From Tetrahymena thermophila SB210 (lineage: Eukaryota > Ciliophora > Oligohymenophorea > Hymenostomatida > Tetrahymenidae), in NCBI RefSeq assembly GCF_000189635.1, contig NW_002476413.1:124001-188000 (forward strand): 64,000 nucleotides of DNA, given 5' to 3'. The stretch's first letter is position 1. Each line of letters starts with the position of its first letter. The notes under the pieces are model-generated. The model worked only from the letters and a program-made list of their open reading frames with translations, had not been told where the DNA came from and ran no database searches. The position numbers were made by a program, and so were the translations under genes. Positions 2,886-62,429 of this stretch are shown piece by piece.

Positions 2886-5157
2886 TCATTGATAGTTTGA
2901 TATGTAATTTAATTCTTATTCTATTAAAAACTGAGTCTGATGATTTAGTTTTAGCTTCGCTATTGAGGTCTTTAAAATACGAAACCAGATCCCTATTTAC
3001 CAAGAGGTTACTTACAGTAATTATACACTCCCAAACCAATCTTTTATGCATGTGCAATTATATGGTGAATTAAGCTGTTCTAGATAGCTTTGAATTAAAG
3101 TAGGATTTTCTAATATTTTTAAATCATCGATCATATGTTTTTCCTTTTTTACTCCTTTTTTGATCATGTCAATAAGTTCTTTTATTATATTTTGATTAGA
3201 TATTAGATGAGTCTATAATTCGAGAGAGAGAAGTAATTTTTCTTTTCTGATTGAAATTTCATGAATCGATTCATCAAAACCTTCTTTCTTTAGCAAAAAC
3301 TAAGTAATAGCTTAGCAAATCTATTCTATCAAAAAGACTTGTAAATTCTACTCGTTAACTAAAGCTTTGATATGCCTCCTAATGATTTGTATTTCAGGAT
3401 AGAAAATCAAATTCTTAGTAAAGACAGATGCAAACCCTAATAATTATTCAGCCTTTTATATTTTTTTATTTTTAAAATGACAAAAATTATCTTAAAATAT
3501 TTCAATGATGAAAAAAAGCAATATTAAACTTTTTTTTAATTTAAAACATAAATAATTTATGCTTTAAGCTAAATATTTTAGATAAAATAAAAAATTAAAC
3601 TTTTGGTAAATAAAAAATACTCAAAAATAAATGCTTATTTATTCAAATAAATTGAATAAAATAATTAAACAATTTTACTTAAAGTTAAGCAAAAATTGGT
3701 ATCTTTTATGTTATGTGGCTCTGCTAGATGGTTTGAAAGACTATTTTTTCTATTTCAGATTTAAATGATAGACATTCATGATCTTCTACTATTAAGTACC
3801 TATAAAATGTATTAGTTGATTTTTATAAAGATTAATAATTAATTAATTGTCTTTACCTCAAACTTTCGATCTTCTCTAATATTTTGAATATTAATATTTT
3901 AGGAATTTATTGCTTTTTGAGAGCATTATTAATCTAGTTTTTGAAGAAGTAGAAGTAAGTGTGTGTGAATTTATTTTTTCCAAAGACTGTATTGACTAAT
4001 GATTAGAGTTCATTTACATTTCCAACAAAAGCATCTTCTAAGATTTGTATAGCACTTTCAGTATTTATCATTTTATCGTAAGTAAAATATTCACTCATAA
4101 AAGTGGAATTCTTTGCTTCTTCATATACCTTTTGTATTATTTATTTTAGTAAATCTCTTGTGCAAATCTATTCCATGAGAGTCTGAGGTAGAATTTTATG
4201 CTTTTTACAAAAATAAGTTTAATGAATTAATAAATATTTTAATTAATTTGGATATTCGTACTAGATTAATTCTATTTTTCATTTTATTTGTAAATTTAAT
4301 ATTAAATTTTTCTTTTTATGCAAAGCAAACCACACAAATTAAATTAAAATCATTCTGGATCAGAATTTTATTTTATATACCTTATTAAATTCTAACTTTT
4401 CTAAAATAGGTGCGAAGTTGGCGTTTGTTTAGAGCAGACTAACTGTCTTGTAGTAAATCATGTCATTTATTTTAAAGAATATCTAAGAGTTGCCGTCTTT
4501 TCCACAAGAATTTTCCAAAAAGCGGTTTAGATAAAATGTAAAAATTTCTCCTGACATCCCATAAGCATGTAAATATTGCTTTAACTCAGAATGATGAGAG
4601 TCAAGTTCATTACTTACTAAAGATAGTATTTCTCTAATATAAAGTTCATTATTTTTGAAGAATTCTGATTGTTTGCTTTACTTAGGGCTAGATTGAACTG
4701 ATTTACTCTTCATTTCACTGGTAAGTGATAAAGTAGAAGTATTTGGACTTGATGCTCTAGAGTTAGTAGAAGCACCATATTAGGAAAGAGAGTCAGAAAA
4801 ATTTGATATTTTGCTTACCTTTGTAATTATCCTAGAGCTATCTGAAAAAACTAGCGGCTAAGTTCCAAAAGACTTCGCACTGCTCGGTGAAAATGCTTAA
4901 GAATTATTTAATAATTTCTCATTATTATTATTATTACTTCCAATCACTTTTGATACAATAATGCTTTTATTTATTTATCGAGGAGATGGAGAGTAGTTGG
5001 CATAAAACTATTCTTTAGATATTTCTATTTTCTAGTGAGTAGTTCCATATTTTGAAGGCTTCTGCATCTTTTAAAATCCATTCTAATTTTTAATAGTTTC
5101 TAAATTTAAATCTGGAATCTACTTAGATTTGTAAAACTGAGAAGAAGAAGACTTCAT
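2886..5157 (-). CDS. Hypothetical 622-residue protein, four exons
   Basis: The proposed structure is join(5157..4381, 4260..3857, 3799..3679, 3452..2886) on the minus strand, 623 codons including TGA at 2888-2886. All three introns begin GT, end AG and are AT-rich, and without them TGA interrupts the frame. The first 150 residues are Ser/Asn/Gln-rich and low in complexity. The remainder looks globular and mostly helical, with regularly spaced Leu/Ile/Phe and Trp (e.g. KDWFGSV, YFYFFKNQ), which suggests an alpha-helical repeat fold. There is no signal peptide, membrane segment or catalytic motif. I do not recognise the family. Exon 2's acceptor was chosen at ..TCTAG before TACGAATAT because the earlier AG leads into a TGA. 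Confidence 0.8.
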
Positions 5158-5957
5158 TGCTTTTATTTAATTATTAAATTCTTATAAGAAATTATAAATT
5201 TTCAGAATAAGATTAATAAATTTTTTTGTGTTTTCTGTTTTTAATGGTTAAAATTAAAAAGGATATTAAATTTCATTATTAATTAAAAAAATATGTTTTC
5301 TTTTCATAAACTAATAACACAAAATAAATTGCGTGTTAAAATTAAGATTTTTGTAAAGCATGAAACCAATGAAAAGACTCTTAATTTTTTTTTTTTCATA
5401 ATTATCTATTGTTTTTCCAATTAAATCCCTACAACCTAAAAGAATTCAATTGTGAAATAGTTTCATTCATATTTTTTTTTCTTTTAAAATTGCAAAATTT
5501 CTCCAAATATTTAAAAATAGCTTTTAAATAAACGTGAAATAAATTTTATAATACTTTTTCTATTAAGAAAAAGGAAGTAGTTAAAGATCTTTTTTGGAGT
5601 TTATAAGGAGGAATAAATTAGTAAATATTACTTTTTATTCTATTTTATTCTAAGGAAATGTTTGATAATAAGATAATTAGTGTTGGAAATAGCTATTAAA
5701 AGTAAGATAACATATTTAATATAGACAGTTTATCTCAAAAAAGACTATTTATTTATTTTTTTTTGGGGTTATAATGAAATTATATATGAAAAAGTCTTTT
5801 GATACTTTTAAATATTAGTTGTTAATTTATATATAAATAGATAAATTTCTCTCGAATGGTTGTATTTCTTTTTTATTAAATTTGAATGATAATTTAGCGA
5901 TACAAATTTTATAAATAATCAAACATATTTTTTAATAAAATTTTTAGTAAAGAAGAA
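5158..5957. other. AT-rich intergenic spacer between divergent genes
   Basis: This separates two genes transcribed away from each other, so it should hold both promoters. I see T-runs and A-runs and a G/A-rich patch near 5565-5620, but no coding frame, RNA gene or nameable motif. Confidence 0.5.
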
Positions 5958-6992
5958 ATGATAAGTATAAATTTTAATAACAGCATAATAGCTGGAATAG
6001 TTAATACAATAAAGAGCATCTTTAACATTTTACTGAGTTGGTCGATATTTATATTAGCACTTAGATTAATAGTAACTCAATATAAAGCAAAAAACTCTTT
6101 ATTTAGGAGTATTTTTAGCAAAATTGAAATCAATATAATAAAATTCTATTCAGATTATAAACAAAAAACTTTTAGCAAATAGTCTTGCCAAAGTAGCAAT
6201 CATGCAATAGAAAATAGGTTTAATTAAATAAAAGATACCCTAAATTTTAACTTATGCTCCTAGTCAGATCTAGTAAAAATAATCAAAGATATTTAATAAT
6301 TGAAAACTCGACATCTGAATAAGCAAAAGTGTTCACTTTATTATGATAAAATGATGTTTAAGACTATTTTGTAAGAGCAAGAAAATGGACAATATCATCA
6401 ATTATTTAGCGAATTCGAATATTTAAATGAGATTCTAGATAAAGAACAAATTATATTAAATATCTAGCATCTTGAAATTGATTATTTGTTTGATGAGAGA
6501 TTAGAAACATATTATACTTTTCAGAATAACTATGATTAATTTGTAAAAACAGACAATAACAATTAATAATATTAAATATAATAGCAATAAATATAATAAA
6601 TATCTGCAGAAGATGAGTAGACTTAAAATGAGCAAAAGGAAAAGTTAACTAAACACAAATTACCAGCAATTTACATTCACTAATAGCTTTTTGTGCAATT
6701 TATATAACTTTATAATTATAACTTTTAGGCATTTGAATTTGAAAAAAGCTCTAACTTAAAATACACACAAGCATTAATGGTATAAAATCAATCCTATATA
6801 ATAAATTCTAATAATCTTAATTTGTAAATGCCAGATAATATTTTAATTTTTAATTCATAAAATGAATTTTAAAATTACACTAGATCATTTCTAACTCTAA
6901 TACTTTATATAAAAATCTTCAATTAAAACATACACCCTTACATAAACTACCTCAAAGAATACACTCTAATGGATATACTCTTAGAAGACTGA
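5958..6992 (+). CDS. Single-pass membrane protein with Gln-rich tail, 344 aa
   Basis: One intronless frame runs from ATG 5958 to TGA 6990-6992 (345 codons). It appears only when TAA/TAG encode Gln; the standard code stops it after 74 codons. Residues about 17-38 form a hydrophobic helix (IFNILLSWSIFILALRLIV), so the N-terminus is probably a signal anchor. The following about 300 residues are hydrophilic, with a poly-Gln/Ile-Gln patch near residues 200-215 and alternating Leu/Ile and charged residues that could be helical. I recognise no family. It is flanked by spacers of about 800 and 600 bp and shows no frame damage. Confidence 0.75.
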
Positions 6993-16104: not shown

Positions 16105-18988
16105 ATGAATTTGAATTAAAATTCTGATATAATGAACAGCGGCTCTGTGAAAAAACAGATGTAGAAAGTAAAAAAAATAAATGGATTTACCCAAAAAATA
16201 AATATCCAATAAATTCTGTCATATGTCGTGCTGGCATGTCTCTTTTTTGTGTTCACATTTTGCATTTTACCCACTCTTTCTTTAGCTGTTTAGGTAAGTT
16301 TTTAAGTTCTTTCTTAATTAACAAAGTGAATAATCTAATTATCTACAAGACTATTACGTATTGTTTATTAACTAAGTTTTAAAAAATTTAATATCAAATA
16401 ATTAATTTATTATTTGACCTTAATATGCCTTTTTTCATTACTTGCTTTGACTGCTATCCATTAAAAAGATATTGATTGCTCTTCATACACTCGAATTAAA
16501 GTTTTAATTTAATTAATATTTAGATTATTTCAGGAATTCTATATTATGGATCATTTGTAATCATGTTTATTTTAGGATATATCTGCACAGACTTTGATCC
16601 TACTGACTAAAATGTTATAAAAGAAAAGACTGCAAGACTCAATAAGTAATTAATTACTATTCTATTAATTTATTTCTCGTCTTTAAATAACTAATTAGAT
16701 TAATTTAATTTTAGAAAATTCAAGTTTATTTATTAATATTTTTCTTGCAAATTTATTTGATAGCTCTCAAATTATTTATTTATCAAATATTCTTTTAAAT
16801 ATACTGCAAAAATAATCTTATTAGTATATTAACTAACTTTTTTTCTTTGTATAAAGCATTGACTATGATGTTTCCGCTTTAGATTTTTATTGTGTTAACT
16901 GCAACACACATGTTTCTAGTAATAGCAAACACTGCAAAGCTTGTAATAGGTAGATAAATTGCTTTAAAATATTTCCATATTTCAAAAAAATTTAAAAAAA
17001 TAAAGAGTTAGAACTATTTGTTTTTTATTCAGCTAATTAAAGCAATATAAAATAATATATATTTATTGATTTACGCATATATAATTCTATTTGTTTATAA
17101 AAGATGCGTAGAAAATTTTGATCATCACTGCAAGTGGCTAAATAATTGTGTTGGATAAGTTAATTACTCCCTTTTCTTTAAGCTTATAACAAGTGTGCTA
17201 ATTCATATCATAATCTTCACTGTATTTGCTTGCATTTCTTTATTCATATATTATTTTGGAAATGATGATGATAATTAAATTTAAGCAGAACTCTTCTTTT
17301 TATTTTCAAATGATTCCTATATAACTGTGAATATATTTGAAATTTTGTTATGGATCTTTGTAGTTGTAGGAATATTAGTTGGATTTTTTGATGGCAATTT
17401 AGTTTTTTTCCATATTTACCTCCAAAAAATGAATCTATCTACTTATTAATACATATTATCCTCTCGTGAAAAGGTAATTTAAATATTTAGAAAGCGAAAA
17501 CATATATTTATTTTGATAAAATTTTGTTAAAATAAAATGGTTTACAATTATATATTAACAAATATTTAACTTTTAATAGAAATAAATGGAGGAAAACAGA
17601 AAGAAAGACCTTTTAGAATTGAGATAAAGAGAGAAAGAAGAGTAAAAAAAGCTTAAAGAAGAAAAGAAATAAAAGGATTAGTTAAACTAAAATAATAATT
17701 TACCTATTTAATAAACACAAACAAATAATAATAATTAAAAAAATTTACAATCAGCAAACCAAAAATAAGTTACTCAATCATCTTACATTTATACTCCATA
17801 GTACAACACTAACAATAACAATAACAGTATTAACTTCTAGAATTAAAACTAAAATATTAATGTTAACGAAGATAAAAATCTAAATGCTGCAGTAAGTAGA
17901 TAAGACAGTATGGAAACTCATTCTTAGAGAACAAATCCATTTGAATTTGCAGATTAAAAAAGAGGATTTAACCTCAAAGGAAATACTATTAACTCATAAT
18001 TCAGCTAAAAAAAGCTAAATAAATAAGGATTTTGGTAAGCATTTTATTATTTATTGCTTATAATTTAAATATTATTTGGCTAAAAGGGCTTAAATTTGTT
18101 GCTGCTTTAAATCTCAAAAAAATGAAGCTAAAATTGGAGCAATTGGATTAACAAAAATTGATGAGTAATCAGAATTTATGGAAGAAAAAGAAGATTAAAA
18201 AAATGAAAATTTTGCAATTATTGATGTAATTTAATTAATAAATCTTTGTTTTTATTAATTAACATTTTTATTAGGAAATGCATCAAAGGGGAATTTGTCA
18301 AACAGTAGATATCATGGATGACATATAAAAAATGAAAAATTAATATTCAGAAAGACAAATGCATTTTGAAATCAATAATAATGAATTGTATTTAAATAAA
18401 GCAGCTCATGTCCTTCAAAGTAATACAAAGATAGTTAACAAAAGCATTAACATTAATGAAAATGCCTTAAATAACGAAAATTAATACTAAATTAATAAAA
18501 TATAATTGGAAAGAGTTGCTACTGAAGAGTTAAGCTTGAAGTAATTGCCTCAGGAAGAAGGTAATTAATCTAATCCTGACTTTGAAAATAATAGCAATAG
18601 CAGTACCACTAATAACAAGAATAAGAAATTTAACTTTAACAAAAAAAACAATTTAAAGCAATCTAAATCAGGTTTAGACATAATAAGTGTAAACTTAACT
18701 TAAAAATCTGATTCTCCTGATAAGCAAAGCAATACTAATAAAAATAGTACTGATAATTTAGCACAAAAAAAATAACATATGCCACCAAAAATACTTTACC
18801 TAAGATCTGCCTCTAAAAGCAGTATGAAAAGCAATTAGCAAAGCAGTAACGGTGAAGTTCATGAAATAAAAACTGAAGATAAACACAACTCAATACCTCC
18901 AAGCTAAATTCAGACATCAAATATAATAAATATGTAACCCATACAAATAAAATAAAACTAATAGTCGATAAATGAAATCAATTAATGA
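16105..18988 (+). CDS. DHHC-type protein S-acyltransferase (palmitoyltransferase), 693 aa
   Basis: Seven exons: 16105..16293, 16524..16645, 16857..16949, 17104..17473, 17580..18034, 18087..18225, 18275..18988; TGA 18986-18988. The Cys-rich domain starts [23 protein letters not shown] and the catalytic DHHC is at residues 141-144 ([14 protein letters not shown]), immediately after the exon 3/4 junction. Cys144 should carry the acyl intermediate. Two TM helices precede it (about 40-63 and 64-84) and two follow (about 160-182 and 205-237), the standard four-TM topology; a DPTD motif precedes the domain. A Q/N/K-rich cytosolic tail of about 430 residues contains a short Cys triplet (CCCF, about 515) that could itself be palmitoylated. 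It transfers palmitate to protein cysteines at endomembranes. The next gene, tail-to-tail, is an ABHD17-like hydrolase. Confidence 0.92.
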
Positions 18989-23635: not shown

Positions 23636-26600
23636 ATGTCAAGCTAACCTTAAGGATAGTCATCTAACCTACAAAATAATGATGATGACATTTTGACTTT
23701 TTCATCAGGAAACAATCTGAATAATATGGTTTCAAGCAATACACTATCATAATAGATATCTTAGCAAGATAGTAATCAGCAGCAAAACGAAATTAAATAG
23801 AAAATAAAGAGGATACAATAAAATTGGTCAGATAAATGTAGTAGTTTAGAAGGTCTTGTTGAGCTATCAAGAAAGGCATCTAGGAATATTAATAACTACT
23901 TAGGATCCATAGAAAATGAGACTGAATAATTTTCTAAAAATTTATTAAAGAGCTCTAAATCTCTTGTTGGAGGGATAACTTGGAGCTAGGGAAAGGAGTT
24001 TGCAAAAATGACAATTTAGTTTGGAGGCGCAATACAGGAATTAGCAACAAAGAGTTTGGAGATATCACAGTTAAACTAATTAACTCTCAGTAAAAGTTTA
24101 GGAGAATATACAGAATAGATTTCTCAATAGAAGAAGCAAATGTAAGAAAAGTCCTAGCTAATTGTGAAGAACATTTCTTACATGTAAGAAAAATACGTTA
24201 AGTAATACGTGAAATATGTAAAATGCTGCAAAGAAGTAGAAAGTGCTATTTAAGAATAAAAGAATGCCTAAGAAGATATCCGTCTTTATTACAACGTAGC
24301 ATATACAATGAAATAAGACATGAAAATAAAAGAACTTGCAAAAGAAGCAGAAAAAGAAGAGTAAAAAGTGTAGTAAGCTATTGAAGAAGGCAACTTTCAA
24401 ATTGAAAATTTACCCAAGCTTATTTAGGAAAATTACAAATAGGTGAAAGAAATTTTCAAGTAAACTTTACACAAAATCATAGACTCTGTTGTTGCTATAC
24501 ATAGCTAACAAAACAACCTTTTTTAGACATTTAATTAGTACATTGTTGATAAAAAGCTGAATGATGATCTAATTGCTATAGTTGATGATGATTAAAAGGT
24601 AATCCAGGAGAGGCTATTTAAAAAGAGTAATTAGAATTTTTTTTTAATGTTAGTATTTTACGTAAGAATATTTATGCATGATAAAGTTGATCGAATGAAT
24701 GAATGTATGAATATCTTTCTAAAAAATAAAAGTGATTATTTGTTCGAAAAGCAAATTTGTCGAATATTGATCATATATGATGAAAAATTTTGATAAAGAA
24801 TAGATTACAACTAATTTGTGAAACAAAGGTGTTTTAACACGTCATTTAGTTTTATATAATATTATTTAAATGAATTTTACATCAGAATTCTTTCGAAATA
24901 TTAAATTTATTACTCATTTATTTAATTATTAAATTTCCTTTTTTTTTATTAATTAGATCCTGATACTATCCCCCCAGGAGTCAACTTTATGCCAATCCAG
25001 TCAGCTCTTGCTCGTAAGGAAGATGTAATTAACATAATTACTTTCTTATTTACTATGGATTTATCTCAAATAACCATTTTCATTAACATTTTCCATCAAG
25101 AAACAATTTCCCTCTTCAAATTAATTAATTTTTTCTATTTTTACCTTATTCTTTTTGCAAGTTTATCTTATAAAGTTACTTACCAAATTTACTGTTTACA
25201 TTTTTAAAAATCATTGCTTAATTTCAACAATTATTTTTTTGAATTTCCTTTAAATTCTTTATGAATAAACACAAAATAAAAATATTTTTTTATCAAAATG
25301 ACTTTTATTTAGCTTTAATTTAAAATATTCAAAATTGAAGGATTTACAAATAAAATATTTTGATAAATCAAGAAAAGAAAATCCCTATTAATTAAATTCA
25401 CTAATTATTCAAATAATTCAAAAAGGTAAATGAAAATTCAATTAGAGCTTATCCAGAAGCTGCCTTTTAGTATTTAGAAGTTTTTGAAGTAATGATGTAA
25501 GAAAGAAAAGATTTAATGAAGCAAGTTAAGGACTTCTTTGGAGATATGGTTGATTTATATGGAAATTTATATTCATAAATAGAAAATTAGAGCAAGGAAA
25601 TCAAGAAAGTACTTACTGGTTCTAAAGGAGATTCTATTATTGATCTGCTATATGCTATCCTCCAGGATCTAATTGATTAATAGTAGAAGAACTTAGATCA
25701 TATCAAAACTATTTTTAACTTGCTAAAAGCTAGCAATAAGACAATCACTTCATGTATCAGTGATTAACAATCTTAAAGTAATGGATTCTTTAATATGACA
25801 AAGAAGCTTTTTAATGATTTTGGAAAGGCTACCAACAAAAAAAAGTGGGTAGTTGATACTAGCTCGTTTTTAGGTATTTCTCTTGACACCTTAAATTAGC
25901 ATGAGAAAAAGAGAATAGTTCTAATTAAAGAGCAAATCTAATAACTTTTAAAGCAAATTGGTTCTTTCTTAGAAAATAGCACAAAGCAATCCTAAGAGCA
26001 ATAAAATGAGCTTAATTAGAAAAAGGAACACTTGGATGAAGAAATTTTACAAGTGTTTACTTCATATAGTAAGATTTTCGAAAACCCTGTGATAAATTAA
26101 GATGGAATAGTTTATGAATACTAAAAATAATTCAAAATATCAAGTTAGCTACAAAAATAATTAGATGAAATCAGCAACAAATAGTATATTTACAATTAAA
26201 TTGACTAATTAACATCTTCCAATGTTTCTTCATAAGATAAAGAAACTACTCAAAACGGAGGAGACAACTCTCCTAAATCTAGCAAAGGAAGTTCTGATAG
26301 CTAAAATGTAACGAACAGCAATACAAAAGAAGGCAAGGATGATCTTACCAATAGCATGAATGCTAGCGTGAGTGGAAGCTCTAAAAAAGAAACAAAATTC
26401 ACATTATTATTTGGGCTAACAGAAAATGAATAGCCTATTGATACCTTCAACTGCGCATTCTCTCATAAGATTTTACTGCAAGGCAAGATGTATATATTTG
26501 CAGATAGGATTGGTTTCCATTCTTACTTTAACAGTTAGTCATTTGTTGGAGACACAGCACTTTCTATTCCCTATATTGATATTATAAGAATCGATAAGAG

Positions 26601-29205
26601 AAAGAATGCTCTCATTTTCGACAACAGTATTGCTGTTATTACTTAAAGAGGTGAACTTTTCTTTACTTCATATGTCTAGAGAGATAATTGTTACAAGCTC
26701 ATTACTTATCTCATGCAAGCAGTTAAAGAAGGAAGAACTAGTATGGTTCTTTCAGCCAAGAGAGTCCTCGAAAACAGTGGTGCTAGTAATGAGCAAATAG
26801 AAGAAAATAGAAAACTCTCTGATGTTTCTTCAAATGGTGGATAGTAAACTTAAAGCAGTCCTACTCAGTTCACAATAAATAAAGAAGTTGATGAGGTGTA
26901 AGAAATTGTTCTTAATAGCAACCAAAAAGTTATAGAACCAACAGAATTGTCTGCTAATGCTGGTACAATAGAATAATCTAACTTAGAAGAAAATTCTGTT
27001 GAAGATAAAAATGTTGCTGCTGTTGAAAGTAAAGTTACTTCCTAAAATGTTGAAAGAAAGTAAAGTAATACAGAAAAAGAAATATCAGAAGTGAATAAAG
27101 TAGCCTCTCTAGTTGAGCAACCACGCTCTGGAGTTGATAAAATACCCCCAGTTATTGAAAAAGAAATAAGTAATAATTTAAATAAGTCAGCAGCTTCTAA
27201 TAGTAAAGCACCTTCTCTTAATGTAAGCGCTGCTAATTCTCCAAAAAGCCAAAAATCTGTCAGTAATTTTTCACAATAAATAGATCCTCTTTCTTCTGGG
27301 GTAATTAGAGATTTTACATCTCAATAAACTTTAGGATTGCCTATTGTATAATCAACAGTGATTGAGGATGATTCATGGATATAACAAAGAAAAAATATAT
27401 TCAAGTAGCAGAGTATATTTGAAAAGGCATAAAATGTCTCTGAATTCGAAATAAAATTTCCTAATGCTACCCCAAGAGAAATTTTTAACATTTTATTTGG
27501 ACTAAAACCTTACAAGCCATAACCTGAAGGAAGCTAAGAATTTCCTAATTTTAGATTTTACATTTTCTAAGAATTTTAGAAGGATACTGACATACAATTT
27601 CAAACTTTTAATCCTCCTCCTCCAGAATGGTACACCAACTTAGACTGCTCTGACAAAGATACAGTGAAGAGTTCTCCAGAAATTTCTAATTTGGAATTCA
27701 AAGTTGTTCACCCAGTTCGTGAGAAAATTCCCTTTGGTCCTAAAGTCAGTTACTGCTAAAATAAAGAAAAATATTTTTGGATAAGTGCTGAAGAATTTAT
27801 TATTGAAAGAGAAATTTTCCTTAGCAAAATACCTTATTGCGATTATTTCACAATAAGATTCTAATACAACATAAGTTAAGTGTAGGATTAGACAAGGATC
27901 CTTATTAAACTATATGTTCATTTTATGAAGAGCACTACTTTTAAAGGGAGAATAGAAAATGGTTCATTATCTGAGAATACTGAAGTTATAAATACTGTTT
28001 TTACTCCTCAAGCTCAAATCGCTATTCAAAATTATTAAAAGTTTGAGAAAGTTTAACGTTTACAAAGATTAAAGTAAGAAGCTGAGTAGAATTCTTAATA
28101 ATTAACATTTAAATAATCTCAAACATTAACTGCATCTTTTGGAGAATCATAACAAATGGATTTTATAGAAAGATAAAACTCTTAATTAATTTAAAATTAG
28201 TAAAAAATAGAAGAAAGAAGAAAACGCTTTAAAGAACAGAGTCTTTTTACAAATGCTGAGAAAACATCTGACTTTGAATTGCTAGTGCCTGAAGCTCATC
28301 CAAGAGAGATTTTTAACTTGATCTTCTTTGATAGCAAATACAAACCAGAAAACAGTGATAAAACTTATCCTCATTATTTATATTACTTTATGGAAGAGTT
28401 TTAGAAGGATGTTGATATGCATTTCGGTAAATTTTCACCACCACCTCCAGAATGGTATGCAAATTTAGAATCTGTAGATTGTAATTCCGTCTTAAACAGT
28501 GAAGATTATTCCCTCCGTGAATATAAATATGTGCATCCAGTTAGAGAAAAAATACCTTTCGGACCAAAAGTGAGTCACTGCTAAAACAAAGAAAAATATT
28601 ATTGGATAAGTGAAGATGAATTTATAATGGAAAAAGAAGTTTATTTAAGCAAAATTCCTTATTGCGATTACTTTACAGTTAGATTCTAATATTCATTCAC
28701 TAAAAACGAAAATTAAGGTACAAAGATTATATGCAGAATTTATGTTAATTTTATGAAGAGCACCACTTTTAAGGGCAGAATAGAATCAGGTTCCCTTTCT
28801 GAAAACACTGATGTGTGGAAAAATGCTTTTTCACCTTAAATATTACAGGTAATGTAACAATATATCTAAAAAAATGGTGAAAAGAGAAAATAAATATAAG
28901 AGCAACTATTATAATCAATTAGATTATCAGCAGTACAAAGCTTAAAAAGCGAAGATTCATCTATATAAAATCAAAATACCAATAAAAAATCACCTCCAAT
29001 TAAAAAAAGTAAAAGAGATATAATAATAGAATAACAAAATTAAATAACTTCATTATATAAACTTAATGAAGAGCGTTTCAAATCATTAAATAAAAGACTA
29101 CACGACATGCAAGGTATAATAGATCATCAAAATAATCAATTTAAAAACATTCTAATTGTTATAATTATAATTTTGATAATCAATCTAATCCACCTATTTA
29201 AATGA
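23636..29205 (+). CDS. BAR-like / GRAM / tandem VASt protein with C-terminal membrane anchor, 1,612 aa
   Basis: Three exons: 23636..24626, 24957..25024, 25426..29205. Residues about 60-560 are long amphipathic helices (SRKASRNINNYLGSIENE, VKCCKEVESAIQEQKNAQ) typical of a BAR/F-BAR-type dimeric coiled coil. Residues about 690-780 are a GRAM domain (FSHKILLQGKMYIFADRIGFHSY, SIPYIDIIRIDKR). Two VASt (StART-like lipid-transfer) domains follow at about 1024-1200 and 1300-1475. Each begins with xFExxxPxAxPREIFN and shares PPPPEWY, VHPVREKIPFGPKVS, SKIPYCDYFT and MKSTTFKGRIE. The last about 20 residues form a hydrophobic tail anchor (ILIVIIIILIINLIHLF). GRAM-VASt proteins (Aster/GRAMD1, yeast Lam) move sterols at ER contact sites; yeast Sip3/Ysp1 add a BAR domain and Lam2/Lam4 have two StART-like domains. 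Sterol or hopanoid-like lipid transfer is inferred. Confidence 0.88.
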
Positions 29206-49560: not shown

Positions 49561-52500
49561 CTTTTAGAATTTTATGAATTTATTTATTTTAAAATTAAAA
49601 GGAGCAAGATAATACAAAAGTTTTATCTAGCAACACAGTATTTGATAGAATATGATAAATTAGATGGCAGTGCTATTTATAATATTAACTCTCTTGAATA
49701 CAAAATTAAGGCCAATGTTTATTAATAATGTAATTAATATTACTTCTAAAGTTCATATATATATTAAGTTGTTGGCGAATATAGTATTGACATTTCATTT
49801 TAGCCTTACCCAAGCGGCAGTTATGGAACTTCCATTATTGGCATTATTCTTGTAATATAATATGTAATAATCATTTAAAAAAACTATTATTTAATTTAAT
49901 GCTTTTAATTAATTGATTAAAGGGGAATCTCATAAAAAATGAACCTTTTAATTAAATTGATAGTTTTTAAAAATAATAAATACCTTCCCCATCTATTAAA
50001 TAAATTAAAGAATAAATAAGCATACTTAAATTAAATTTATTTAAATAGATGTTTATGATTTTCTTAGTATAAACTTTTATCCTCACTTTCTTTAATATTT
50101 TACATTAAAAGATTTTAATATATTTATAAAATAAATTATACTTCTAATAGCAAATAAGTTTTTAATTATTCTAATCATATTTTTATATTTTAAAGTGTCC
50201 TGATTTTTGTGATTCATGCGATAATAACGGATGCTTTAAATGCTCATCAGGCTATTATTTATCTAATGCTATTTGTAATGCCTGTGATGGTACTTGTTTA
50301 ACTTGCTCAGGATCTGGAAAAAATTAATGTATTACATGTAAAAATAATTATTATATATCTGATAAAAATAATTATTGTGTTTAATCCTGTGATTCAGATT
50401 AATATGTTAATTCAATTTCTCCACAAAAATATTGTAGATCTTGCATAAGTAATTGTTAAACTTGCATCAAATCAAATAGCTGTTAAAAATGCTTAACTAG
50501 CTACTACTATACTGGTCGTTTTTGTTTCCCTTGCGATAACACTTGCTATAGCTGCTCAGGTCCTGCAAAAAACTAATGCATTAAATGCTAAAATAATTAT
50601 TATATTTCTGAGAAATTAAATAATTATTGTGACCCAAATTGCGACTTAACTTCAGGCTAATTTATAGATTATTCAAACCCTGATCAAAAATATTGTAAAA
50701 ATTGTATTAGTAATTGTAAGAGTTGTAATAATAATACTAGCTGTACGACATGTATAGATAATTATTATGTTTCTGAAAATACTTGCTCTCCTTGTGACAA
50801 TTCTTGTAAGTAGTGTTTAGGGCCTGGGGTTAATTAATGTACTATCTGTAGATAATCTGGATATTTTATTTAACCTGATAATAACAATACATGTGTTCAA
50901 TCTTGTGATCAAAATAATGGCTATTATATTGATAAATTAACTAATCCTTCACAGTAGTACTGTAGAAAGTGCCTCTTATCATGCAAAACTTGCTCAAATG
51001 GAAATAGTTGCAGTACATGCTTTGACAAAAACTTTTTAGATTCTTCTAACTAATGTTAGCCTTGTGACTCATCATGCCAAACTTGTAGTGGTCCATAAAA
51101 TACAAAATGTATAATTTGTAGATCTGGTTTACACTGGTAACTCAGTACAAGTTTATGTGTTGAAGCATGTGATTCAAATGAATTTTTGAATGCACTATCG
51201 TAATGCTAAAAATGTGATAACTCTTGTAAAACTTGTGATAGCTCCTCATCAAGCAATTGCAAAAGTTGCTATTCAAATTTTTACCTTTATAATAAAAGCT
51301 GTGTTCCTGTATGTCCAAACGGCTACTCGCAAAATACTAACACTCTTGCTTGTGAACCTTGCTAAGATAAATTAAGCTGTAATAACTGCTATAACACTTG
51401 CTAATTATGTACTTTAGCATAAATTTAAACTCAGAAATGCAACACATGTTATACCGAAACAAGAAGATTAGATCCAAATAATAACTGCGCTTGCTTAAAT
51501 CCAAAAGACAAAAGAAATTTATTTTACTAATGCAGTTATTAAAATATAGCCGTCTTATATGCCAGTTTAAGTGAAAGTATTCCTTAGTTAATTATTGATT
51601 TTGGCTCACCATTAAAGTCAATAATAAGTTCACCAAATTAACTCTGCAAGTAGGTGTTTGAAGATTAAACATTTGCTTTGTTAGGATCAGATTGTACATG
51701 CTCAATTACTGATAGCTAATTTATTGTTACTTTGAGTAATTATTTATATATTTTTCCAAAATAAATTTTAATGTATTTATTTAATTTAAAATATTTAGCC
51801 AACTCTTCTAGTATTATGGAGAATAATCTTATAAATTTCAAATCTGGAATCTTGCAGTTTTAGGATTATAATGTTTTTATAGACACATTTTATAGAAATA
51901 TAGTTTACTAAAATAAGACTGATAATCCAATACTATAATTTCAAAGTAATTTTATAGAAAACACATGTAATCCTGTAATGGTTACTCTAAGTGATTTAAA
52001 GAATGATGCGGGTAGAGGTTTTTTTAATTTAACATGGTCATTGGAGGAAATAACTGGAATTACAAAAGATGAGTAGATCTAAAGCATCAATTAAATAATG
52101 AAAACAGCAAGTTAAAATTTGAATAGAACATTAATCATAGACCCCTCAAACTTACCTCCTAATCAAAATATTACTATAAAATTTAGCTTTTTACTAAAAG
52201 TGAACAGAACTGGCTAACAGACGTTTAAAATATTTTACAGAAAAGAAAAAATCATCAGGATAAATTATCAGCAATCGATTTATCCACCTATATATAGGTA
52301 TCGTATTTATTATTAGTATAATTCTAAGGTTATTTTTATAAATTAGGTACAAGAGCTTGAGTTTCTACTTTTAGTTTTACATTGAAGAATGTGAGTTTGG
52401 AAATAGTACATATTTTAATGAGCCAACTGATCTTAAAATAGTTTCTCCTCATCTAACTTAAATAGAGCAAAATATTAAAAACTATAATTAATCTAGTTTT

Positions 52501-55500
52501 TAATTAGACATACCTCCTTACACATTATCGTCAAATTAAACATTTAATATCAGTGTAATTCATTTTTTATTTTAATTTAAATTAAAAAGAGATTTTCATA
52601 CTAAATTAAGTTTATTTTAGAATATGAATGAACTTTTTATTTATACCAAATTATTCTTATTTTTAATTTTTACTAATTCTAAAATACTTTCTTATTGTAG
52701 GTTCTTTTTTATTAAAACCAAAATTTTTTTTTCCGAAAATTTACATAAAATGGAAAATCTAAAAAAATTAAAAAATTTGAAATGTTTATAATTTAAATTT
52801 AATAAAATATTCAATTTATTTAAAATATATTTTAAATTCCACATCCTTTTTAAAATAAATTTTAATTTTAATTTTCAAACAATAAAAATGATTTTAAAAT
52901 TCGTATTATTTGATTTGGGAAATTATTATTTTTCTTATAAAATTAAAAATTAATTAAGAATTTTAATAAAAATTTAGATGATTTTAAATCTTACATCTGT
53001 TAACAGGATAAGTTCTATAAAAAATATATCCATTGATGTACTCATTTCTAACTTATATTTGTCTATAGTTGGAGGATCTAATTTTATTGTTAGTTATTAA
53101 AAATAATTTGATTTGGTATCAGAATTTAGAGATTATGAAATTCAAGATCAAACTTCCATTTTAGGTGTTTCTTTTACCTGGTAGTGCAAGAGTTTATCAA
53201 GTGAAGATCGCATTTGCTATGACTACAATCATCAAATAGTTTAAATAAATCAAGGGATAAGCTCAATCTCTTTCCCTGAAAGAAACTTCCAGCCCTATAG
53301 CATCATAGTTTTAACAATAGAGGGATAAAAAGAAAAAAGGTCAGCTAATTTTACAGCCACTTGTATTTTTACAGAATTAGATATTCCTCCATTAACTGTT
53401 TTATAACCTCCACAGCAGTAAAATCAGAAAATAAATTTAAATTAAGATCTTAACTTTGTTATTCAATACGGTTCCAATATTTCTTCGGATATTTTATCAT
53501 ATGCTGGAGCTTTGTTGTATAAAAATAAAATAGTTGGAGCCATAAAATTTGATTACTACTAGGTAAAATTTAGAATATGGAGCTATTTTTAAAATATAGA
53601 TCCTACTGTTCCAACAGTTTAAGTACGTTTTTCAGTTTACAATCCATCTTATGTCATGCCAAGTTTAGCAACAATTACCCTTTTAATTAACATTCCTCCT
53701 AAAAATTGCATTCTTTCTATAAGTCCAAACCAAGGAGTAGCTCTCTAAACAATTTTTTCTATCAAGTTCTCAAATTGTGTTGATGAAGACTCTCCTTTAA
53801 CTTACTAGTTCTTTTACTATAATAACCAAGCTGATTATGAACAAGAACTAGATTCACCTTGGAATATTTCAAGAAGATTAATAAAAGATTAAACAACTAG
53901 CTATGTGATGAACACTACTCTACCTTAAGGAAGCTTAATTATAATGAGCCAAGCTATGGACTCTTAACTTGGAATTTCTAATAGCACTTTAACTGTTCAA
54001 GTTAATGGACAAAATGAAACAGAAGATAATTATTATTAACTTGTGTACTAACTTATAAAATAAGCTTAGTAAAATTATCAATCATTTAATGACTAAGTAG
54101 TTTCTTTGAGTATTATTGGAGAAGATTTAAGCAAAAACAAATAACTTTTTACATCTTAGAAAATCAATGATCTGAAAGCTTAACTCATATCGAATTTGTA
54201 GGAAAAATCATTTTAATTACCCTAATTTTCTCTTTTATCAACTTATGCAAATAAAGTAATTGCATAACTGCAGTAAACTCTCATAGATTCAAAAGAAAAT
54301 TAGAAAGAAACAATTTACAACCAACTACAAAAAATCATATAACATACATAATCAAGTATATAAAATAACAATGCAAGCCAACTTTAATAAAATAATGATA
54401 TTTATATGCAAAATCTGATTGATTCTTTTAAAATTTTAAATTCCACTGTCAATTTAAGTAGCTCAATGCTGGATTTTGAACATTATAACAATATATCTTT
54501 CCAGATAGGAAGTATACTTTCTAACATCACACTCCCTAATCAAGGGTCACTCATATTAGAAGGTAATCTATCTTCTTTACTGTCTGACACAATAACTCAA
54601 AAAAATATTTATAGATATGCACTACCATTTAATAACTCAGATTCTTAAAATTCTACATTCAACATAGTTAGAAACACATATGCATTAAATATTTATGAAA
54701 ACGCAACTAACTTTCAAGAATATGTGAAGTAATATGAGAATATTAGTTCGAATTTTTAATATTCAAAGAACAAAGTAATAACTACTACAATAAACAGCAC
54801 AGATTCTTAAAATTTTATGAATAATTCCAGAGTAGCATATTAATTTAATAATGCAATTTCTAGCAAAAAATATAACATGACTTGTTTATAATAAAATGAT
54901 GTCAAATGGTCTAAGAATGATTGCAGTATCTTAAAATAAAATTATAATAACTTCATGTGCTTGTGTTAATCTTAATCTCCTACAACAATTATTGAAGACA
55001 TAGATGACATGTTTTAAAAAAATAAAAACCTAGATACAGTATTAGGAGAATAAGGAATATAAAACATACAGAAATTTAAAGAGTTCTACTTGTATGCATC
55101 CTTTTGGGTTATCTCAACTTTTACTGCACTTGAAATTTTTTTGCTTATTTTAGGAAAAAACTTAGATCGTAAAACAAGATAAAAAATTATCTCATAGGTT
55201 TTTCCAGAAAAGTTAATTAGTCAATAGTCGAAAGATTAAGAATTTTAAGATTAAGCTGACATATAAACTTTCCCGAAAATATAATTAGTGAATGAAGACT
55301 AGCAACCTAAGGTAGAGCCATCTACTCCACCTTAAATTAATAAACATTTCCCAAGTTTAATTCTATAGAATGGTCAGTCTTAAAAATCTCCAAAACAAAT
55401 ATAGTCTACTTAGCCAAGTGAAAGAAATTAAATGATGCCTAATGCAAGATGTAAAAAGACTAAGTTTTTGAATTTATAAACATAAGAAAAATTACCAGAG

Positions 55501-56214
55501 ATTAGTTCAAATAACTTATCTTAAAACCGAATATAGGATAATTAACTTTAAATTTCTAAATAGCGAAGTACCTTAAATTAAGATGAAAATCCATAATAGT
55601 CTATTTAAACAACTTCATAAAATGAAACAAAAAAAATTTAATATTTCGATTTAAAAGAAAAATAATAAATTGCTTTTGAAAAAGCTTCTTTCTTCAAAAA
55701 GATAGCAATTTTTCATTAATTCTTGAGTATTTTTTATCTTTATGATGAAATAATTTCAAGACCTACTCGATTCACTCTGTTTTATATAAAGAATATTCAT
55801 ACTTTATCAATTTCCTTACTATTTTCCTAATACAAGCATATTAGTTAGTAAGTAATAATTGCCTTAATTAACAGCTTTGTTCTAGGTTTAAGTACTTTTT
55901 TTATTTAATTCACATACAAAAGAGGTAAGTTTGGAAAAATAATATCTGTCATTTTTTAAATTGGACTCTGTTTTGTTTATCTTTACATAATATTGGCAAT
56001 ATCTAGTGGAAACTCTGTGAGTGAGTCAAATGAATTCATGATGATTTTCATCTTATCAATGTCAGCAGATTTAATATTTATGTAAGTAATCACATCTTCT
56101 TTCATGAGTCTATTAGTCAAGAAACACTTTAAAAATGTATTATAAAATAGCTTTTATGAAAAATTATTTAATCTTTTTCAACTAAAGTAAGTAATTGAAA
56201 TGATAGATATATGA
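49523..56214 (+). CDS. Polycystin-1-like surface protein: furin-like Cys repeats, REJ-like region, GPS motif, multiple TMs; about 1,928 aa
   Basis: Proposed exons: 49523..49637, 49664..49851, 50196..51735, 51799..52297, 52347..52554, 52978..56214; TGA 56212-56214. From 49664 on the frame is well supported. Residues about 105-520 hold about a dozen CxxC furin-like units (CDGTCLTCSGSGKNQC, CPNGYSQN). About 560-1350 resembles the receptor-for-egg-jelly region (NTCNPVMVTLSDL, GRGFFNLTWSLEE). A GPS-type motif lies at about 1485-1525 (MTCLQQNDVKWSKNDC, MCLCQSQS). TM1 is about 1553-1578; a Gln-rich cytosolic loop of about 200 residues and four or five further TMs follow. No PLAT or channel pore is seen. 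Homologues sense external or ciliary cues. The N-terminus is uncertain: the signal-like ATG at 49523 joins only through a 26-nt intron or a frameshift. Confidence 0.8.
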
Positions 56215-58104: not shown

Positions 58105-61020
58105 TCATCTTATTAATTTAATATTTTCCAGCAATTCATTTATAAATTCATAGTTTCTTTATACTTTATTTTCAATTTGCTAATTATTTAATTTTGGTTT
58201 ACTCTCATCATATTTAAACATATTCAAAATATTATTTACTTCCACTTTTTTATGCTTTAACACTTATAAAAAATGAAGATTTTTGTTGCAGCATTTGCAT
58301 TAATAACCGTACTGGTAAAATAAATTTTTAAAATTTTCAGGTATCAATTTGATATCAATTTAACCAGCTAAATTCTAAATCTGATTTTATACTGAGTATA
58401 TTTATTCTCCTGCTCTTAGATTGATCTTATATTTAATTGAATTTTCTGAGTTTTAAGCCAAAATTTATAAATCACCGAAGATCTAATCTATTATTTAGTT
58501 AGATGTAGATTATGGTAATTTAAGTATCTTTTTGATACTACTTCTCCAATTGCTAAAAAATTATTTTTTAATATTTTACTTCTATGTGTTTATTATACAT
58601 AAACTATATTAAAAATAGGGCTTGACAAAGGTGCTCCACATTAAAGCCTAGTTTTTAAATGTTAAGTCTCTTATAAAGTATAAAGCTTTTTATAAATATT
58701 TCCATCTTTGTTCTATGAACTTAAGGTGAGGAGCTATTGTTCCGTTACCATCTATATTGATTCCAAGATATTTGTACTGATTAACAATAGGTATACCTTC
58801 AATAGAATTACTATCAATTTGATAGTTTTTTAATGGTAAAACAGCAGATTTATTATTGTTAATTATAAGCTTATATTCTAAACAAATTTATCTAAGCTAT
58901 TGAATAACCCTTTTTAAATGTTAAATCTAAGTTATTATCACCAAATCATCTGCGTATACCTTATACCAAATTGGTGATTATACTTAAGAGATTAAGGTCT
59001 TCATTACATCCTCCATATAAATATTAAATAGTCCAGGACTCAAGGAAGAGCCTTAAATCACACCATCTCTTAAATATACCTTCTAAGATTTAGTTTAATA
59101 AAACAAGTTATTTTACAGATATCTTAGAAATTAACTTTCTTCTAAATTAAGAATGTCTTTGTCTTATAAGATCTTAAATAGTCTATCTCTGCAAATTGTG
59201 TTATAAGCTGATTTGAAATCTATGAAGAGAGCTCCTACTGCATCTTTTTTTCTCATTTGTTAAATTTTATTTATCAACATAAATATATTTAAACCTGTTC
59301 CGCATCCTTCTATAAATCCAGTTTGATTTCTGTCTAACCTTTCTTTTAAATACTACTAAATCTTGGTACTGAACCTATTTTCTAACCATTTATAGGCTGG
59401 AGAAGTCACTGTAATAGGTCTGAAGTCTCCAGCACTTGGTATATTTGGGAAGACCTTATTTAAGGGTATCAACCTTGCAGCAAAAATCGCTTCCCCTAAT
59501 TTATTTACCACATCTTGACACCACCAATCATTTAATACATTTACATTATTGTTACTTCTAAAAAACTATAAGCTATATCCATCCAAGGTTATTGCTTTAT
59601 TATCATTTATTTTTAATTAGAGTAATTTAATTTCTTCGTCATTTAAAGGTGAGAGGTTAGGTAAAGGCAGTTTAAGATTTTAAGTGTTACACATTTATCC
59701 TGATAACTCAGTCAGTTTACTTAAACAATTATTTATTATATTTTCATGCCCTACAGTTAATTTACCTTCGTCGTTCAGAAAGCTCGTCATTAAACCTCCG
59801 TCTCTCTTTTATGGATGCGTTACTGATAATCTTTATACAATTTTCCACCCATGTTTAGACTTAGAAGTTCTTATGTAAGATTCACATTATTAAATGAAAT
59901 GTTACCAAGTGAACTTTTATTCCTACCTTTTCCTAATGGTTAATCTTATGCTTTTTTTATGCTTAATAAATTTGCGGAGTTTGTTAATTCTTTCAATGAA
60001 GCTTAATGAATTATTGCTCTACTTACTTGCTATGAAACATAAATTAAATGATCCTTATTTAAAAGGAATTAAAAATTTCTGCTAGACTTTTGGTTAAAAT
60101 GGTAACATGCATTCAGTTTCAATAATAGAGTGATCAGATGCCTCAAGGTAAAAGCTTGTTTTTGAGTTCCATCTAAATTACTAATTAGACCAAATCCAAT
60201 CAGACTTAAAAAATTTCTAATTTCTACTTGCTATTAAAGTAGGTTATTGAGGATCGACTAATTGATTGAGTTAAGGAAATAAATTAGTTTTTTGATTTAA
60301 GTCTCCGCTTATTATGAATAAACTATCTTTTGATTCTAATAGTTAAGTTATCCATTGTTAAAGTTAATTTAAGGCTCCTTTCTTTAGTTGTTTAGGGTAA
60401 GGAATATACAAATTTATTAAGTATAACTCACATATAGCATGTGAAGCCTAAGCTAATATCATTTCAATTTGATTTTCTTAGTTTAGATCATTTGGTATAA
60501 GGTGAGTCAAATCTCTAAGTGTAAATTATTTATCCACACCTATTACTAGACCACCTCCATTCTAACAATCTCTTTTTTTTTAAATAAAATTATAGCCTTA
60601 TGTAAGAGGCCAATCAAATTGTCTAGTTTCCTGAAGCATAAATATATGTGGTTAGTGCTATCTCAATAATCTAAATGTCAGATCTTTTACTGATCTCACA
60701 TTCCAGTTTATAATTTTAAATTTATTTTCAATTGTTTTATTATTTGCATCTTATATATTAATGTTTATATTTTCAAATCTATTACTAATGTTATAATTAT
60801 TACTATAAAAACTATATTATGGTTCAATTTATTATTAAAATATTTAAGTCTGTATCAATTGCTATGAATTTTGACTTAAATCATCATGAATGATTTGATT
60901 ATCAATTTATTTGTTCAGCGTTAACTCCAGGTTTTAGAAATGACTGATCAGTAGGTTTTTCTTACTTGTTGTGAAAAGAAAATCTGCTTAAAGAAAGAGA
61001 TTATTTTCTTTTTCTATCAC
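58105..61020 (-). CDS. Retrotransposon ORF2: AP-type endonuclease and reverse transcriptase, about 970 codons
   Basis: Open from 61020 (after an in-frame TGA at 61023-61021) to TGA 58107-58105. Endonuclease motifs in order: INWNVRSVK, QETRQFD, ISGDLN and SDHS (60127-60138), matching the exonuclease-endonuclease-phosphatase fold that nicks target DNA. Reverse transcriptase motifs: LGEAIFAARLIPL, DFRPITVTSPAYKWLE, FIDFKSAYNT, RDGVIQGSSLSPGLFNIY, the catalytic YADD (58945-58956), then LEYKLIINNNKSAV and YLGINIDGNG. The C-terminal region includes CKCCNKNLHFL. No RNase H is seen. There is no in-frame ATG upstream of the endonuclease core, and the frame is +1 to ORF1, overlapping it by about 119 nt, so translation by frameshift or re-initiation is likely. 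Confidence 0.9.
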
Positions 61021-62305
61021 TCATAATCTTACCATTTCTTTATCTGATTGATTTAATACCTGATACTTCTTCCTCTTGATCCTACTTTAGTAACTAATTA
61101 TAAGCTTATTATTTTATAGAATTACCCCATTTATCATGAGAAGACCCAGGATAGATATCTTTTTCATGCTTCAAATAAAAATGGGATCTATAGGATTCAA
61201 AGTTGGAATAACCTTTATGAGTAGTTGGCTAGCAACCGCATTTGAATATAACGTGCTCTTGATCTTTTTCGAAATTAGCCATCTAATTTTTGAGTTGGCT
61301 CGAACCTTGACTTTCTTGAGTTTTGAATGATAACTTGCGTTGTAATTTTTATTTTGGAGTAGATTTAGTATTAGAAGTAATATTATCTAAATTACCATTC
61401 TAAATTTCTGTTTCTTTCTAATTTTTCTACTCCTAAAACAAGCCTTCATCATTTGCTATTTTTTAATTCTTCATCTATTACTAGCTTTAAGAATTATCAA
61501 TCTTATCGTTTACTGCATTTATTGTGCTAATATTAGTTTTTACCTTTTCTTATGTCTCAATAACTGCTTTTTGTTTCTCATCTTTTTATCCATGAAATTA
61601 CTTAAAAAGAGTTACGAATTCTTCTTATTTCTAATTTTTAAATTCTTAATCTTGGCGGATAAAAATTTCAAATTCCTAAGTTATATCCTAAAATAATATT
61701 CGATTAAAAAATTCATTTGCCAGTTAAATATTATTCGAATCGAAAACGACTTTCTGAATAATAAGGAATTCAGATTACTACTAGCCATCGAAATTATTCT
61801 TTTTATCTATATTCTGATAATTGAATAGCTAGGGATAATCTCTATGGGAGTATCTGCAGCTTTCCTTATATTTGCAAATTCCTTTCTTATGGTACCTACA
61901 ACTAATTCTATAAGATTCTTTTATTATACTGCTATGCTAGATTTTTCTATTTTTAACATCAGCTGGGATATAATATGACTTATTCTATTAAAATTACTTT
62001 TTTGGTAGCTTTCTATGTTATTAATTCACAATTACAGCATCAAAATGCCCTCCATCTATTTTACCTGTAAAAAGCAATCTAATTTGCTAAGAAGTTGAAT
62101 TATAAAACTTCTTACCTTCATGCTTAAAAACTTCACTAGGTTTTTCTAAGTCTACACAGTCACGGTAAAGAGTAATAGATTGCTTAAGATATTCTGCCGT
62201 TATTTTTATGATTGGATATGTTGCAAATTGGCCATTCGTCTTAATTAATTTGCTAATTTCTTATTATTGATCTATTGGAATAAATTGGAATTATTTTTTT
62301 GACAT
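60902..62305 (-). CDS. Retrotransposon ORF1: CCCH zinc finger, C2H2-like segment, OTU-like remnant, 467 codons
   Basis: The frame runs from ATG 62305 to TGA 60904-60902 with no interruption. Near residue 100 the GKIDGGHFDAVI segment resembles the C-terminal histidine block of OTU cysteine proteases; the catalytic Cys half would lie upstream and is missing. A clean CCCH finger follows (CRYHKKGICKYKESCRYSH, spacing C7C5C3H), an RNA-binding type. A glutamine- and lysine-rich coiled coil (EKVKTNISTINAVNDKID) comes next, then a CxC...H...H segment (FKCGCQPTTHKGY, YRSHFYLKHEK). ORF1 proteins of non-LTR elements coat the element RNA; that role is inferred. The frame stays open upstream of ATG 62305 into the (AAT)n tract, consistent with 5' truncation. 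Confidence 0.8.
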
Positions 62306-62385
62306 AAACTAACAAAAATTTATGTCACTTTATGTCTTCGCACTTTTATGTTTATGTTAAAATTATGTCACATATTCGAAACCCC

Positions 62386-62424
<39 letters not shown>
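62386..62424. repeat. (AAT)n microsatellite
   Basis: About thirteen AAT units lie at the 5' edge of the retrotransposon and just before dispersed-repeat copy 3. Copy 1 of that repeat is also preceded by an AAT/AAAT run, so the microsatellite belongs to the repeat and may mark the insertion point. Confidence 0.9.
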
Positions 62425-62425
<1 letters not shown>

Positions 62426-62429
62426 GTAG

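Follow-up and report, generated by a model that had tools for sequence, protein, structure and literature searches.

A probable GRAM–VASt lipid carrier of Tetrahymena thermophila with a predicted helical N-terminal domain common to paralogues with one and three VASt domains

What is the function of a ciliate protein in which a long, predicted helical front end precedes a GRAM domain, two closely similar VASt domains and a hydrophobic C-terminus, and does this front end belong to the BAR superfamily? The question is raised by one gene in the window, i.e. the whole 64,000-nucleotide stretch of Tetrahymena thermophila DNA that was analysed. In this genome a telomerase protein is identical over about 100 residues to PDB 2r4g, a T. 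thermophila entry, which fits this species or a very close relative. An earlier note had placed the gene at 23636–29205, and these limits are right: under the ciliate code (table 6) position 23636 opens an ATG and 29205 is the final base of a TGA, which define a single gene on the plus strand encoding 1612 amino acids with two predicted introns (Table 1). Intron 2 would end in an AAAAG acceptor, and the same acceptor is predicted in the paralogue C221. Exon 2 has a counterpart in the paralogue C35, SPEIIPPP at the matching position, with the C35 splice picked by eye.

Table 1. Layout of the gene in window coordinates, with the basis of each assignment.
Feature	Position	Strand	Basis
Exon 1	23636..24626	+	ATG to donor GTAATT; table 6 open frame and splice model
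Exon 1 content: Q/N-rich start, then predicted helical region 1 at about 23780–24550		+	
Intron 1 (predicted)	24627..24956	+	GT-AG, 330 nt; boundaries from sequence
Exon 2 (predicted), PDTIPPG linker	24957..25024	+	frame and splice sites
Intron 2 (predicted)	25025..25425	+	GT-AG, 401 nt; boundaries from sequence
Exon 3: region 2, GRAM, VASt 1, VASt 2, hydrophobic end, TGA	25426..29205	+	single table 6 open frame
Region 2, probably helical	25429..26223	+	first ~45 aa like C221
GRAM (PH-like)	26395..26724	+	Pfam PF02893 2.2e-16; PDB 4tyz 5.7e-6; LAM6 (5yqr) 0.017
VASt 1 (StART-like)	27445..28032	+	PF16016 1.5e-11 by itself; genome search 7.5e-9
VASt 2 (StART-like)	28273..28851	+	best stretch of the 6e-27 PF16016 match; genome search 1.2e-15
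C-terminal hydrophobic segment, probable tail anchor	29140..29202	+	hydropathy

For the conserved part of the chain, the domains named in the earlier note were recovered. Hmmscan against Pfam identified GRAM and, behind it, VASt in two stretches, and a whole-genome search with PF16016 gave VASt matches at 27622–27975 and 28387–28803 of the window, so that the copies expected at residues 1024–1200 and 1300–1475 were found by both routes. The two copies, described before as near-duplicates, are 55% identical, and the blocks PPPPEWY (residues 1083 and 1358), VHPVREKIPFGPKVS (1114 and 1389) and FMKSTTFKGRIE (1186 and 1462) occur in each of them without a single exchange. On a tree they group together with a support of 87/94, which is under the star mark of the tool. 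PF16016 matched all eight copies in the VASt alignment of this genome, and when a profile of these eight was compared with the PDB, the best match was StARkin 2 of yeast Lam2/Ysp2 (3.5e-10), followed by human GRAMD1C (1.6e-7) and GRAMD1A (3.1e-7), the human GRAMD1 matches spanning 1.6e-7 to 3.9e-7, and by Lam4 (1e-5). In a further gene, C324, VASt was missed by Pfam and found by the genome's own VASt profile built without C324 (6.7e-27 and 2.6e-14, in two frames). StART-like cavities were not seen, since the structure model of VASt 2, for which VASt 1 supplied the second row, is of low confidence (pLDDT 47.2, pTM 0.46). With this poor model Foldseek ranked Lam2 StARkin 2 first, but at E 0.01 and TM 0.2, and nothing passed an E cut-off of 0.001. 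A transmembrane segment had also been claimed for the C-terminus, and the most hydrophobic 19-residue spans are indeed the last of the chain, their mean Kyte-Doolittle value of 2.56 being the chain maximum. The last ~20 residues probably form a tail anchor, and this hydrophobic end could serve a membrane other than the ER.

The N-terminal ~300 residues are predicted by AF2 from the single sequence to be all-helical, with low confidence; the model of exon 1 (pLDDT 55.6, pTM 0.23) has an unusable fold. The helical part is split between exon 1, which contains region 1, and the beginning of exon 3, which contains region 2. This N-terminal domain has homologues in two paralogues, C221 with one VASt and C35 with three. 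When one sequence was compared against one by blastp, region 1 aligned with C221 over 204 residues (26%, E 3e-9) and with C35 over 175 residues (26%, E 5e-9), and it is collinear in both comparisons. In C221 a single exon, open over 1978 nt (659 codons), spans region 1, region 2 and the beginning of GRAM; this paralogue has the same order of parts as the window gene, with one VASt, and a similar C-terminus (...INFLSLFK). Its VASt was recognised by the whole-genome PF16016 search and by the Pfam match of the alignment copies, and at E up to 0.01 the Pfam scan of the whole protein lists GRAM without VASt. C35 has the N-terminal region first, then GRAM and then three VASt, all on one strand. The first ~45 residues of region 2 align with C221 at an hhalign probability of only 2.8%, and region 2 matched nothing in Pfam or the PDB. 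That regions 1 and 2 are tandem copies of one domain was rejected, as no similarity is detectable between them (hhalign 0.6%), and so were MreB, Vac_Fusion and MCPsignal in exon 1, whose Pfam E values of 0.07–0.54 fall short of the cut-off. A search of viral contigs yielded no relative.

With a probability of roughly 0.68, we regard the window protein as a tail-anchored lipid carrier of the LAM/Ltc/GRAMD1 (Aster) family, the cargo of which is possibly tetrahymanol or a scavenged sterol. It is the combination of GRAM, two VASt domains and a hydrophobic C-terminus that makes a contact-site lipid carrier likely, and to this extent the earlier proposal of sterol-like lipid transfer at contacts stands, without its BAR part. 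In such a carrier the last ~20 residues would insert in the ER as a tail anchor, GRAM would bind a partner membrane that is anionic or carries phosphoinositides, and the two VASt domains, on long linkers, would each load one sterol-like molecule and move to and fro between the two membranes that face each other. The N-terminal domain may dimerise the protein and help to select the partner membrane, perhaps as an F-BAR. What we propose as cargo is based on family membership and on searches for two genes: the genome contains a squalene-cyclase-type gene (1.3e-9), and squalene epoxidase was not found there by a search that was positive in two control genomes. The cell seems unable to make sterols itself. 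On this basis the protein would naturally carry tetrahymanol, which is a hopanoid-like sterol substitute, or sterol scavenged from food, not home-made sterol. Among CC-licensed PMC papers we found none that joins tetrahymanol, Tetrahymena and a lipid transfer protein; the window gene and its paralogues would be concrete candidates for a carrier step outside vesicles.

Of the BAR-like helical front end claimed before, the helical prediction holds, and the BAR identity is not established. An even bet, in our view, is an ordinary coiled-coil or helical-bundle domain for dimerisation and spacing, without a BAR fold. Hmmscan of the N-terminal region matched no BAR, BAR_3 or FCH model of Pfam, and a PDB profile search with it retrieved no BAR protein at E up to 10. 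Genome searches gave four FCH and one BAR_3 matches, all at genes other than the front-end carriers, so that the window gene, C221 and C35 are without an FCH match, and Foldseek with the exon 1 model found nothing. A BAR family search was likewise silent in this genome, but it matched in no genome at all and thus had no working control, so its silence proves little. The collinearity of the region between the window gene, C221 and C35 speaks against a plain coiled coil, as does an F-BAR profile score above that of permuted controls.

This score also speaks for a more tentative alternative, a genuine F-BAR at the front by which curvature sensing is joined to tandem VASt lipid transfer. A profile of the three paralogues aligned with four ciliate F-BARs over 147 columns with an hhalign score of 35.8 (probability 43%, E 2.5e-4), a score that none of the 80 block-permuted controls and neither of the two reversed ones reached. 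The F-BAR HMM scores of region 1 were −0.4 (window gene), 1.4 (C221) and 7.6 bits (C35), each exceeding all 200 letter shuffles; that of the window gene, however, is barely above −0.8, the best among the 8 decoys listed of 15. Long helices (72, 135, 50 and 21 residues) are predicted in the front end by the low-confidence AF2 model, and FCH-GRAM-VASt proteins have been reported in stramenopiles (PMC4082322). On the other hand, true F-BARs, each left out in turn, scored 99.1–99.6% as compared with 43%, and true ciliate F-BARs matched F-BARs in the PDB at 1.4e-13. The match depends mostly on one of the four F-BARs (L025), without which the score drops to 21.4; among 15 coiled-coil decoys the top score was 21.0, and the window sequence alone reached 14.9, under the decoy mean of 16.3. 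Region 2 was rejected as an F-BAR, since permuted controls attained its hhalign score of 26.3 in 6 of 80 cases; with the F-BAR HMM, the region 2 score of the window gene was reached by 24 of 200 shuffles and that of C221 by none of 200.

Unlikely is a role as lipid sensor or tether instead of carrier, with VASt domains that gate GRAM binding. GRAMD2A is presumably without a carrier domain. Some GRAM proteins are known as markers of ER-PM contacts (PMC5823543), but long identical core blocks are kept in both VASt copies, and isolated StARkin domains of the yeast LAM family are reported to bind sterol, namely cholesterol sulfate (PMC12493155). Quite improbable is the broader view of a Tetrahymena set of F-BAR-GRAM-VASt(1,2,3)-tail-anchor proteins, with one divergent F-BAR front end common to three genes, that moves tetrahymanol between the ER and curved membranes, e.g. 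parasomal sacs, cortical alveoli or phagosomes. If true, this would be the first known sterol-surrogate carrier, as we know of none described before, together with a natural dose series of carrier domains. That exon 1 is a separate transcript and the true protein begins in exon 3 can be dismissed as very improbable: although the link between exons 1 and 3 depends on two introns predicted from sequence, C221 carries the same parts within one exon, in line with the one-chain claim of the earlier note, and in C35 region 1 and an IPP stretch lie ~2 kb upstream of GRAM on the same strand.

As a probable lipid carrier, the window protein resembles human GRAMD1A–C (Aster-A–C) in its GRAM and VASt/StART-like domain, and its hydrophobic end may correspond to their ER anchor; we take these human proteins to carry a single VASt each and to lack a long helical front end. 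Yeast Sip3/Lam3 and Ysp1/Lam1, to which the BAR among the yeast members presumably belongs, are alike in StART-like domain and probably in membrane anchor and differ in having one StART-like domain, so that their layout of BAR, PH, one StART-like domain and anchor is not that of the window gene with its two VASt. Ysp2/Lam2 and Lam4 are, we assume, without an N-terminal BAR-type part. They share GRAM, two StART-like domains and probably a C-terminal membrane anchor with the window protein, and among the six yeast LAM members BAR and PH domains have been described (PMC12493155); the two tandem VASt of the Ysp2/Lam4 layout are present here in one chain and one exon. Since a BAR front end is not established, the earlier suggestion that one chain combines the Sip3/Ysp1 and Lam2/Lam4 layouts is unproven. 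The GRAM/VASt part is already known in ciliates: Khafif et al. 2014 (PMC4082322) described ciliate proteins in which GRAM is joined by one, two or three VASt copies, in Group 7 and part of Group 4, and also mention adjacent VASt duplications in mammals. T. thermophila is the ciliate used in that study, the VASt counts of Group 7 equal those found here, and the window gene is likely to be included. The main text of that paper is without the word BAR and gives FCH for stramenopiles only. These stramenopile FCH-GRAM-VASt proteins are alike in joining an FCH/F-BAR part to GRAM-VASt and differ, by their description, in that their FCH is recognised whereas the window gene has no FCH match; among the matches listed from CC-licensed PMC papers, none dealt with a BAR part of ciliate VASt proteins. 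Compared with these systems, the homologous N-terminal domain in genes with one, two and three VASt appears to be the new part of the finding, and the different VASt numbers behind the same front end would allow one to ask what purpose the extra carrier domains serve.

The gene starts with the ATG at 23636 and closes with a TGA ending at 29205, exactly as the earlier note had placed it. With TAA and TAG read as glutamine, as in the genes of this genome, a three-exon model yields a product of 1612 aa, the introns being those suggested by GT-AG sites, reading frame and paralogues. The GRAM and two VASt domains named in that note were recovered by Pfam in exon 3 (2.2e-16 for GRAM, 6e-27 for the two VASt stretches together), and a PF16016 search of the 101-Mb genome found both VASt copies independently. 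These share 55% identity in protein and 70% in DNA (620 aligned bases). The C-terminal end is a strongly hydrophobic segment.

Features of the window and of two paralogue contigs
Feature	Position	Strand	Match or remark
Exon 1 (model)	23636-24626	+	
Exon 2 (model)	24957-25024	+	
Exon 3 (model)	25426-29205	+	
DHHC palmitoyltransferase	16607-17944	+	4.2e-16
Frame of ~1000 aa	34682-37753	+	very proline/glutamine-rich; unusual GC skew
Cysteine-rich repeat protein	49917-52385	+	Giardia VSP model, 2.1e-22
REJ-domain protein	52204-56214	+	1e-47
Long open frame	58105-62524	-	reverse transcriptase, 1.4e-29; endonuclease/exonuclease/phosphatase, 4.8e-5 (weak, just under cut-off)
Second frame beside it	60902-62524		
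L015/L022 (G000:C35)	about 148400-155030	-	GRAM + three VASt; region-1-like stretch upstream
L023 (G000:C324)	4097-6212		sixth GRAM-VASt gene; VASt split between two frames

Elsewhere in the window, the reverse-transcriptase element looks like a non-LTR retrotransposon, and the Giardia VSP match perhaps reflects just a general cysteine-rich surface repeat. The genome's telomerase reverse transcriptase exon agrees with PDB 2r4g with zero differences over about 100 residues (LYEFVQ to TIVK). We take 2r4g to be the T. thermophila protein, and the telomerase RNA found in the genome is presumably also that of T. thermophila. The DNA therefore comes from T. thermophila or from a species very close to it.

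The PF16016 search located seven stretches at five genes, and a GRAM search five places, C324 among them. The GRAM of C221, which is interrupted by introns, was missed by this genome-wide search and scores 2.2e-14 in a joined model. Pfam detected no VASt in C324, where a custom profile built without C324 matched one in two frames. Together, these matches give at least six GRAM/VASt genes and at least nine VASt domains (three in C35, two in the window gene, one each in C221, C176, C91 and C324). Eight copies, three of them joins across introns chosen by eye, were used for alignment, profile and tree, and PF16016 matches all eight. Their profile reaches yeast Lam2/Ysp2 StARkin 2 in the PDB (3.5e-10), as well as Lam4, human GRAMD1C and GRAMD1A. 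In the tree, the window pair groups together (87/94), as do the three C35 copies (87/88; copies 2 and 3, 100/99); one branch only reached the star mark of the tree tool. Because pair and trio each form their own group, the VASt copies probably multiplied separately within each gene.

The helical part of exon 1 (region 1) is shared with paralogues. In one-against-one blastp it matches the N-terminal parts of C221 (204 aa, 26%, E 3e-9) and C35 (175 aa, 26%, E 5e-9); the same comparison of C221 with C35 gave no significant match (E 0.54). Against C35 the observed score is 31.6 vs at most 21.3 in 60 permutations. When the whole helical part was searched against the genome, the one match besides the window gene itself was C221 (2.4e-4). 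The GRAM exons of C176 and C324 show no region-1-like stretch. Between the window gene and C221, region 2, at the start of exon 3, shows a weak similarity confined to the first ~45 residues; no counterpart was recognised in C35. That the front end and GRAM belong to one protein is best supported by C221, where a single open exon of 1978 nt holds regions 1 and 2 and the beginning of GRAM. The region-1 stretch of C35 is on the same strand as its GRAM, ~2 kb upstream.

The label 'BAR-like' in the earlier note is not borne out by the sequence profile. No BAR-superfamily Pfam model matches the scanned stretches of the window gene, C221 and C35, and the FCH (4) and BAR_3 (1) matches in this genome are all at other genes. 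Up to E 10, a three-row front-end profile hit none of the BAR proteins in the PDB, whereas the four ordinary FCH/F-BAR genes of this genome (L025-L028; G000:C198, C167, C442, C172) find PDB F-BARs at 1.4e-13 by the same method. Profile against profile, front end and ciliate F-BARs align with a score of 35.8 (43%, E 2.5e-4), compared with at most 27.7 for 80 permuted and 16.9 and 17.2 for two reversed controls; true F-BARs, each left out in turn, score 122.9-161.3. The front-end score becomes 21.4 without L025, 25.4 without L028 and 26.2 without L026, and stays at 35.9 without L027. As single rows against the F-BAR profile, C35 (24.0) and C221 (21.5) barely exceed the best of 15 decoy segments (21.0) taken from EKQ-rich frames at SMC loci, and the window gene (14.9) falls below the decoy mean (16.3). 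With an F-BAR HMM, region 1 of the window gene, C221 and C35 scores -0.4, 1.4 and 7.6 bits, each above 200/200 shuffles; the best decoy among 8 listed of 15 has -0.8 bits. The fold model is all helix (pLDDT 55.6), and Foldseek returned no match for it. We put the chance that the front end is an F-BAR at about one in three.

If the protein works like Lam and Aster proteins, its C-terminal end would anchor it in a membrane, GRAM would dock on the partner membrane, the VASt domains would shuttle a sterol-like lipid, and the front end might serve dimerisation or choice of membrane. A squalene/hopene-cyclase-type gene occurs at C404 (1.3e-9), with a DTDD motif within its frames that we take to be of the cyclase type. 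Squalene epoxidase had no match in the genome, the same search being positive in two bacterial controls. Published work describes tetrahymanol synthesis or sterol uptake in T. thermophila and calls the trafficking details unknown. On these grounds, the cargo is likely to be tetrahymanol or scavenged sterol.

The BAR-bearing members of the yeast family are presumably Sip3 and Ysp1. Gatta et al. 2015 report BAR among yeast family members. The main text of Khafif et al. 2014 (PMC4082322), in which the word 'BAR' is absent, surveys 17 species including T. thermophila and describes FCH-GRAM-VASt in stramenopiles and a group confined to ciliates, whose members have either VASt alone or GRAM together with one to three copies of VASt. 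As the counts of one, two and three in that group are those of C221, the window gene and C35, the VASt part of the window gene is very probably already in that data set. What is new is the common N-terminal domain and its occurrence in genes that carry one, two and three copies of VASt.
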